From NCBI GenBank assembly GCA_949284985.1, contig CASDWY010000001.1, forward strand, positions 1 to 64,000: a stretch of DNA of 64,000 nt, written 5' to 3'. Position 1 is the stretch's first letter, and each line of letters opens with the position of its first letter. The stretch comes from an uncultured bacterium. Its GTDB lineage: Bacteria; Cyanobacteriota; Vampirovibrionia; Gastranaerophilales; Gastranaerophilaceae. The notes beneath the pieces were generated by a model. That model was given only the letters and a program-made list of their open reading frames with translations. It ran no database searches and was not told the DNA's origin. The position numbers were made by a program, and so were the translations under genes. Shown here one piece after another: positions 20,805-54,144 of this stretch.

Positions 20805-20981
20805 TTAATCCTTAGTTGTTTTAAAGTTAATTAAAGCTTTGTTGGTAACCGCTATAAAACTCATTGATTTCCAGAAATCATCAGGTGATAAAGTAGAAGT
20901 CCTATCAAGATTTACTGTGACTTTTTGAGCGTAAATGGAAGCTAATTTTTTATCGAGTTCGTTGCTTGGTGTAACTGCCAT
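20805..20981 (-). CDS. Small soluble protein downstream of an HLR1-like element
   Basis: 58 residues (MAVTPSNELDKKLASIYAQK ... TNKALINFKTTKD), too short to be noticed by most gene finders. AAAGG lies 8-9 nt before the ATG. The product is soluble, with no cysteine and no membrane segment; no family is recognised. Upstream at 21057-21074 are two tandem GTTACA octamers of HLR1 type, and the transcript appears to run about 85 nt past the stop through an AU-rich hairpin (AAATATTATT/AATAATATTT, ~20760-20785) and two AGGAG sequences to the terminator at 20698-20718. This is a complete, small, regulated unit. Confidence 0.6.
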   Translation of the reverse strand: MAVTPSNELDKKLASIYAQKVTVNLDRTSTLSPDDFWKSMSFIAVTNKALINFKTTKD

Positions 20982-21042
20982 TTTTTTTACCTTTCACAAT
21001 GCTTACTTATATATAAAAACATATATACTTTAAAGATTTCAC

Positions 21043-21074
21043 AGTATATACTTTTTGTTACATTTCGTTACACT
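21043..21074 (-). promoter_or_regulatory. HLR1-like element and promoter of the 58-residue gene
   Basis: GTTACATT (21057-21064), TC, GTTACACT (21067-21074): two octamers two bases apart, matching the HLR1 consensus (G/T)TTACA(T/A)(T/A) twice except for one base. On the - strand it precedes -10 candidates TATACT (21048-21043) and TATATG (21025-21020). Confidence 0.5.
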
Positions 21075-44432: not shown

Positions 44433-44467
44433 TTAACATTTTGTTACATTTTAATTAACCTTATTAT
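44433..44467 (+). promoter_or_regulatory. HLR1-like element and promoter of the 440-residue protein
   Basis: TTAACATT (44433-44440), TT, GTTACATT (44443-44450), then TTAATTAACC and a -10 TATTAT (44462-44467). The two octamers fit the HLR1 pattern with one mismatch and overlap the -35 position. Confidence 0.45.
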
Positions 44468-52586: not shown

Positions 52587-53717
52587 ATGAAAAATAACCG
52601 CTCATCATATTTAAGCACAAGAAGAGATTCATGGGTAGAGGTCAACATAGCTAATGTTGAACATAATATTGCTGAAATAAAAAAATTTATTCCTCAAGAC
52701 AAAAAAATTCTTGCAGTAATAAAAGCTGACGCATATGGACATGGTGCCCTTATGCTAGCACCTACATTTATCGCAAGCGGAATATCAATGCTTGGGGTTG
52801 CCTCACTGGATGAAGCAAGACAATTACGAGAAGGTGGATTTGATCTTCCTATACTAGTGCTGGGTGCAGCACCGGTTTGGGCTTTTGACTGGGTAAGCGA
52901 AAATAATATAACCATTTCTGTTTTTTCCAATCAACATATAGAAGCCGCCAAACAAGCCTATGAAAAAACAGGTATAAAAGTTCCTGCTCACGTAAAAATA
53001 GACACTAGCATGAATAGAATAGGTATTGCTCCTGAAAAAGCCCTTGAATATATAAAAAAAGTTCAATCTTGCGGATACATAGATCTTAAAGGTGTGTTCA
53101 CACATTTTGCCTGCGCAGAAAATAAAAACCTTACATTAAAACAAATTGAAACATTTAAAAATATAGTAACTAAAATTGAAAATAAAAATAATTTAATAAT
53201 TCATTGTGCAAATACCGCAACAACAATTGCATATCAAAAAGAAATTGACTTCACAAATATGGTTAGAGAAGGTATTGGACTATACGGACTTATGCCGGAT
53301 TTGCCTAATGACACTGCCAAAAAACCAAATCTTAAACAAGTAATAGGTCTCAAAGCAAGAATAGTAAATATACACACCGCACAAAAAAACTCCGGAGTCA
53401 GCTATTCATACTCCTATAGAGCTCCCAAAGAAATTAAAATCGCAACTATTCCAATTGGCTACGCAGACGGGGTCTCGCGCTCCTTATCAAACAAATTAAA
53501 AGCAAAATTACATAATCAACAAATTACACAAATTGGAAATATTACAATGGATCAAATGATGTTTGATATAACAGGAATAAATGCCAATGAAGGCGATATA
53601 ATTACACTTTTAGATGAAAATCTCTCAATAAATACTTGGGCACAAGAATTAAATACAATTAATTACGAACTTACATGCCGTTTAAAAGTCCGCCTGCCAA
53701 GAGTTTATGTAAGGTAA
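52587..53717 (+). CDS. alr: Alanine racemase
   Basis: PLP enzyme making D-Ala for peptidoglycan. About 376 residues from MKNNRSSYLSTRRDSWVEVN. The PLP lysine is in AVIKADAYGHGA and the catalytic Tyr region is SYSYRAPKEIKIATIPIGYADGVSR in pieces. The start at 52587 fits the family better than the frame's first codon at 52515, which would add an unlikely hydrophobic leader. Confidence 0.95.
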   Translation: MKNNRSSYLSTRRDSWVEVNIANVEHNIAEIKKFIPQDKKILAVIKADAYGHGALMLAPTFIASGISMLGVASLDEARQLREGGFDLPILVLGAAPVWAFDWVSENNITISVFSNQHIEAAKQAYEKTGIKVPAHVKIDTSMNRIGIAPEKALEYIKKVQSCGYIDLKGVFTHFACAENKNLTLKQIETFKNIVTKIENKNNLIIHCANTATTIAYQKEIDFTNMVREGIGLYGLMPDLPNDTAKKPNLKQVIGLKARIVNIHTAQKNSGVSYSYSYRAPKEIKIATIPIGYADGVSRSLSNKLKAKLHNQQITQIGNITMDQMMFDITGINANEGDIITLLDENLSINTWAQELNTINYELTCRLKVRLPRVYVR

Positions 53718-53724
53718 TTTAAAC

Positions 53725-53841
53725 AAAAAAAAAGCTCCAATAAGGAGCAATGCTTTTAATAGGAAGGGAAGGTTAGGAAGTTATAAAATAAGTCTGTGTT
53801 TACTTGATGTTTTAATTACGTTTAATTATCTCTTACATATA
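53725..53841 (-). ncRNA. Candidate small RNA with CU-rich segment (sRNA-1)
   Basis: On the - strand a -10 TATACT (53853-53848) could start an RNA near 53841. About 65 nt later comes CTAACCTTCCCTTCCT (53776-53761), the complement of a Shine-Dalgarno-like stretch. The RNA then ends in the hairpin GCTCC-TTATT-GGAGC (53748-53734) with nine T. There is no open frame of any length. An HLR1-like element (53888-53905) is centred about 55 bp upstream of the start. A second RNA with the same plan lies at 59919-59979. On the + strand the same hairpin would be a weak terminator for alr. Confidence 0.5.
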
Positions 53842-53887
53842 TATAAAGTATATAAACAAATAAAAATTTCACTCTTCCTCTTACTTT

Positions 53888-53905
53888 GTTACATTTCTTT
53901 ACAAC
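53888..53905 (-). promoter_or_regulatory. HLR1-like element upstream of sRNA-1
   Basis: GTTACATT (53888-53895), TC, TTTACAAC (53898-53905), read on the + strand. The pair fits the HLR1 consensus except for the last base, and the RNA it may control runs on the opposite strand. Confidence 0.5.
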
Positions 53906-53979: not shown

Positions 53980-54144
53980 TTAATCTGCGACGCGCTCAAA
54001 AATTCTTTTATAATTCCTTTCAATATCAAAAAGATTACTCAAATTATCGGTAAAAGCAGCTAAACACAACCCAACAACAGCACTGCATAATAATATAACT
54101 AAAACTAATTCCAAAGTAATTGCAAAAGCTTCTTTTTTTTTCAT
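53980..54144 (-). CDS. Small single-span membrane protein
   Basis: 54 residues: MKKKEAFAITLELVLVILL, with one membrane helix (residues ~8-31), then a polar tail ending FERVAD. The positive start and EAFAITLELVLV give it the look of a very short pilin-like or Flp-like peptide, but the Glu is at the sixth and not the fifth position after a possible cleavage, so this is not a confident prepilin. The ribosome site is weak. It lies between sRNA-1 and gatD, divergent from gatD. Confidence 0.4.
   Translation of the reverse strand: MKKKEAFAITLELVLVILLCSAVVGLCLAAFTDNLSNLFDIERNYKRIFERVAD

Follow-up and report, generated by a model that had tools for sequence, protein, structure and literature searches.

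On the minus strand of the window, by which we mean the whole 64,000-nucleotide stretch of DNA that was analysed, a putative small RNA (sRNA) gene of about 116 nt occupies positions 53725..53840. The gene call rests on covariance-model matches in relatives and on the lack of a conserved ORF; the start, at about 53840, was predicted from the -10 box TATACT (53852-53847) with the usual spacing, without transcript data. The -10 box is included in the block TATACTTTATATATATGTAAG (53832..53852), which showed little or no variation among 12 promoters, and the promoter is proposed to act without a -35 consensus. Further upstream, alignment identified TGAAAT (53866..53871) as the window's version of a TG(A/C)AATTTT element located between the -10 box and an HLR1-like box (53888..53905), the spacing of which is fixed in homologues. 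The octamers of this box, GTTACATT-TC-TTTACAAC, are read on the plus strand, i.e., opposite to sRNA transcription. Within the transcript, the CU-rich segment CTTCCTAACCTTCCCTTCCT (53761..53780), predicted to be unpaired, was designated a putative seed on the basis of conservation and fold; it contains CTAACCTTCCCTTCCT (53776-53761 on the minus strand). The gene ends in a Rho-independent terminator (53725..53748), supported by covariation of its stem and composed of the hairpin GCTCC-TTATT-GGAGC (53748-53734) and nine T (53733-53725).

An earlier sequence-only reading of this DNA had claimed a TATACT box on the minus strand, a non-coding stretch of about 117 nt, the CU-rich segment CTAACCTTCCCTTCCT, a hairpin followed by nine T, and two octamers two bases apart upstream of the start. 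All of these parts were present, with the stretch measured at about 116 nt and the octamers agreeing with the HLR1 consensus at 17 of 18 positions. No ORF of eight or more codons was found in the ten transcripts examined, which ruled out a coding RNA. The alr gene (TIGR00492) is convergent with the sRNA gene and ends at 53717. Upstream of the sRNA, a 54-aa ORF (53980-54144, minus strand) encodes a product with a membrane-like N-terminus, for which no Pfam family was found; a similar ORF also lies upstream of the sRNA in a relative from the same genus.

HLR1-type promoter and its candidate regulator

Comparison of the window box with the pattern KTTACAWW-N2-KTTACAWW revealed a single mismatch, in agreement with the consensus of an HLR1 element. 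Counted from the start that the -10 box predicts, HLR1 is located at -65 to -48, i.e., inside the range of about -66 to -45 from which RpaB activates transcription in cyanobacteria (PMC13421787). Because of this position, activation is inferred to be the expected sign of regulation here. The pattern alone was weak, since 63 sites with at most one mismatch were counted in the genome compared with 39 for the reversed-pattern control, only 1.6 times as many, and an HLR1 match on its own was rejected as evidence. The homologous loci were more informative. Among the 68 distinct regions upstream of homologous copies, 62 had an HLR1 box with no more than two mismatches 35-38 nt before TACTTT (0.12% in shuffles) and 45 matched the full consensus; 63 had (G/T)(A/C)AATT, at a distance of 20 nt from TACTTT on its upstream side. 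Since the box is conserved in homologues at a fixed spacing, its occurrence is far beyond chance. The TATACTTTATATATATGTAAG block was also found in front of HLR1-driven protein genes.

The proposed test for an RpaB homologue gave a positive result: a protein encoded at C28:45175-45924 scored 360.5 bits against the RpaB model (NF045944), above the equivalog cut-off of 330 (NCBIfam). RpaB was also detected in 52 of 59 relatives, with identities of 73-96%. The cut-off was passed by one of 14 control genomes, presumably that of Synechococcus elongatus. Homologues of RpaB in these non-photosynthetic gut and groundwater bacteria were reported in 2013, with the suggestion that their function there may be a different one; the lineage was described as lacking photosynthesis genes (PMC3787301).

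The genome encodes three OmpR-family regulators with a DNA-binding domain, and the promoter block might be real and yet be controlled by one of the two paralogues of RpaB, whose scores with the RpaB model, 211 and 216 bits, fall short of its cut-off; octamer types can be common to related regulators. However, RpaB is the only equivalog, it is widely retained in the relatives, and the box fits both the RpaB consensus and the activating position. Control by another OmpR-family regulator was therefore considered quite unlikely, and RpaB remains the preferred candidate.

Conservation and distribution of the sRNA family

An alignment of 13 copies from the genus and family showed a near-invariant 3' module, CTTCCTAACCTTCCCTTCCTATTAAAAGCATTGCTCC-hairpin-T8, separated from the TATACTTTATATATATGTAAG block by a variable body. 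The CU-rich segment was nearly invariant among these copies, and in 60 distinct sequences from the order most of its columns were 86-98% conserved. It was unpaired in the predicted fold. The fold of the whole transcript was no better than that of shuffles (z -0.05), and a structured RNA beyond the terminator was rejected on this basis. The terminator stem, for its part, varied by compensatory pairs, the kind of change that had been named as worth searching for at this locus: both sides had changed at five of six pairs, 95.6% of cells were paired, and covariation reached 0.588 versus 0.233 in shuffled alignments. Cells changed on both sides numbered 81, against 26 after shuffling, and every slid control was much lower. 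It should be noted that the alignment had been fitted to the structure of the model, which biases the covariation count towards it. A lack of conservation in relatives had been set in advance as grounds for refutation; the HLR1 box, the CU-rich segment and the terminator were instead kept together. With its own promoter and terminator and no coding capacity, the gene has the layout of a trans-acting base-pairing sRNA, as judged from sequence and conservation only.

When the locus was searched against 59 genomes, another complete copy turned up in its own genome (G000:C21:21945-22130, 78% identity), and further ones came from the same genus and family. Homologues with an identical order of parts occurred in seven families of Gastranaerophilales. 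These findings bear on a cis-acting explanation, in which the element would serve the 54-aa ORF upstream as 3' UTR or terminator, or be antisense to the end of alr. Such an explanation could draw on the presence of that ORF on the same strand, on the convergent end of alr and on one copy beside alr in the genus. The second copy and those in other genera have other neighbours, however, and in each of them matches to the promoter model place a separate promoter between the RNA and the gene next to it. The copies at unrelated loci thus appear already to disfavour a cis element, which we regard as very improbable, and a separate sRNA gene is preferred.

The covariance model of the 3' module (R1) matched 176 of 383 genomes of the order (E <=0.01), often twice per genome. 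Matches were strongest in the family to which the window belongs; those in additional families of the order were weaker and diverged. The inspected ones among the diverged copies differed in their terminator stems and kept the order of parts; many of the weak matches are judged real on the basis of these inspected copies. In one distant family of the order, two near-identical sRNA genes with the diverged seed CTACCTAACCTAACTAACCTTCCCTAACC were arranged in tandem (L192, G041:C2:187421-188015). In a class-wide draw of 381 genomes, 94 had a match, all of them from the same family or order, and no match was found in other families of the class. The exact seed-plus-T-run pattern was present in 92 stretches among 84,980 genomes. 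The 80 matches listed of these 92 were named Gastranaerophilales, Melainabacteria, Cyanobacteria or (uncultured) bacterium, with one additional Clostridia record. The latter, CAMEWS010000002.1, named uncultured Clostridia and carrying the sRNA, is probably a mislabelled Gastranaerophilales genome. The absence of matches to the pattern in viral contigs ruled out a phage origin of the sRNA. The 12-mer AGGAAGGGAAGG, a complement of the segment, had exact matches only at both sRNA genes in each of the three genus genomes.

Siblings from one genome had 90-100% of the 3' module in common and only 49-70% of the body, and their terminator loops were often alike, whereas those of different genomes were unlike. 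Since siblings share the module and the loops in this way, the result suggests that the copies were either homogenised or recently duplicated.

Searching the window against Rfam 15 at gathering cut-offs yielded tRNA only, and nine homologous loci gave only chance-level matches to other Rfam families (E up to 1), so that a known RNA family was rejected. No sRNA described for this bacterial group was found in a literature search. The genes appear to form a previously undescribed sRNA family, confined, among the genomes listed, to the order Gastranaerophilales.

Candidate targets and proposed mode of action

The seed is complementary to Shine-Dalgarno (SD)-type sequences, and UCCC motifs are a mark of SD-blocking sRNAs in low-GC bacteria (PMC4132741). 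A search for individual targets did not single one out. Sites for the best 12-nt complement, counted with up to two mismatches, were no more frequent in the genome than those of the reversed control (40 versus 49), and the complement of a second segment was depleted (106 versus 220); extended seed complements were rejected as a target signal. Duplex energies over 251 ORF-predicted starts, which relied on crude start calls and covered stretches of the genome only, were broadly favourable without a trusted outlier. In all three genomes of the genus, the rpaB leader contains GAAGAAGGGAAAG, a complement of the seed. The leaders in other genera differ, so that the complement is limited to the genus, and rpaB ranked 25th of the 251 starts by duplex energy; negative feedback on rpaB was demoted to a genus-level candidate for these reasons. 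In the HLR1-driven gene at C31:70774, GAAAGGGAAGGAAAT before the ATG provides a 9-base match to the complement of the seed, and this single case would give a feed-forward loop of the RpaB-PsrR1 kind. Neither the complement counts nor the 251 starts nor the rpaB leaders yielded a broadly conserved or outstanding mRNA target.

These results leave room for a different role of the CU-rich segment. For SD pairing, a shorter seed than the conserved one would suffice, which counts against this account and makes a protein partner possible. In that case, a real HLR1-driven sRNA would bind a protein as a titration RNA rather than mRNAs, as may be indicated by the roughly 20-nt conserved segment with repeated UUCC/CUAACC units and by the missing enrichment of its complements. 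On the other hand, unpaired UCCC segments are typical of SD-pairing sRNAs (PMC4132741), and no candidate protein is in hand, none having been sought. We consider protein titration unlikely, although it deserves somewhat more weight than control by another regulator, and retain SD pairing as the working account.

Known systems offer partial parallels. In Synechocystis, PsrR1 (SyR1) is likewise an sRNA in the RpaB regulon; it comprises 131 nt, pairs with the ribosome-binding regions of its photosynthesis-gene targets (PMC6202907) and is induced by high light under RpaB control (PMC6202907; PMC12850537). The window sRNA differs in that it belongs to a lineage without photosynthesis, has HLR1 at an activating position, is present in at least two copies and has no shown sequence relation to PsrR1. 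Photosystem or phycobilisome mRNA targets of the PsrR1 kind are not expected, because the lineage was reported to lack photosynthesis genes (PMC3787301). LhrC1-5 of Listeria monocytogenes are sibling copies, all LisR-driven, in which CU-rich UCCC repeats block SD sequences (PMC4132741). Sibling copies, a CU-rich UCCC segment and a response regulator (RpaB, by inference) are common to both systems. In contrast, LhrC carries two motifs in stem-loop loops, comes from another phylum, has another regulator and shares no common sequence family; the LhrC arrangement (UCCC in two loops plus linker) is absent here, where the CU segment lies, unpaired, on the 5' side of the sole supported stem, the terminator. 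As far as the anatomy shows, PsrR1 and LhrC may be regarded as functional analogues, with kinship or membership not established. The core of another sRNA, Yfr1, is also CU-rich and unpaired. Yfr1 measures 65 nt and is conserved across cyanobacteria (PMC6202907). The window sRNA is set apart from it by the lack of any Rfam sRNA match in the window and in the nine homologous loci above chance level.

In conclusion, the locus probably encodes an RpaB-activated trans-acting sRNA, one of two siblings, that pairs with SD regions. RpaB bound to HLR1 (about -65 to -48) would switch on the promoter and produce the RNA of about 116 nt, the unpaired CUUCCUAACCUUCCCUUCCU (UUCC/UCCC) would pair with purine-rich SD regions of several mRNAs and lower their translation, and the terminator hairpin would protect the 3' end. 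Genome comparison establishes a gene family with a co-conserved HLR1 box, a conserved seed and a covarying terminator, together with an RpaB equivalog, whereas the remaining steps are inferred, with confidence falling from transcription through RpaB binding and activation to SD pairing. Reading the locus as an RpaB-box sRNA is supported, and the SD-pairing step remains unproven.

The wider set of HLR1-type promoters

A promoter model (R2) detected 7-41 sites per genome in each of 40 family genomes. Its 11 sites in this genome (E <=0.1) corresponded to the two sRNAs and to ORFs mostly of unknown family. In other genomes, the best R2 promoters are followed by this sRNA again, by an RNA of a second type with CACACTAACCTTCACTTCACACGAGGAATTAC, or by a member of a 51-58 aa protein family. 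A second HLR1-type promoter in the window, GTTACATTTCGTTACACT (plus-strand reading; 21057..21074, minus strand), was identified by pattern search and an R2 match at 21002-21073. It lies upstream of a 58-aa ORF (20805..20981, minus strand), and at least six other genomes have similar proteins of 51-58 aa behind promoters of the HLR1 type. The 58-aa ORF matched no Pfam family, and the HLR1-driven proteins no clear one.

The second RNA type, which was not found in the window, consists of CACACTAACCTTC(ACTTC)ACACGAGGAATTAC, then AAAAAGAATTCC or similar, then a terminator; it was observed in family genomes L126, L135, L140, L145, L147 and L148, in tandem in the last. In addition, HLR1-type promoters about 290 bp apart form a tandem at G000:C31:70774-70834 and 71060-71128 (L156, L150), where both precede ORFs of unknown family and the first has the SD GAAAGGGAAGGAAAT. 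A further HLR1-like site with one mismatch, TTAACATTTTGTTACATT, is located in the window at 44433-44450 (plus strand).

The promoters share the consensus of the box and its distance for activation with the cyanobacterial HLR1 regulon; the RpaB regulon of Synechocystis likewise includes 22 non-coding-RNA promoters (PMC12850537). A difference is that the box is here accompanied by TG(A/C)AATTTT and TATACTTTATATATATGTAAG and that its outputs are sRNAs and small, uncharacterised proteins. A tentative extension, which we hold to be possible rather than probable, is that an order-wide RpaB regulon acts largely via RNA, its strongest promoters driving at least two CU-rich sRNA types that would retune translation initiation.

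RpaB is a light-response regulator in photosynthetic cyanobacteria. If its regulon in this order does act largely via RNA, its control of sRNAs may be older than, or unconnected with, the role in light acclimation. An undescribed sRNA family is added to a group with none found described in the literature. The fixed promoter signature provides a readable candidate RpaB regulon with the sRNA family as its marker output, and thereby makes the function of RpaB outside photosynthesis directly testable.
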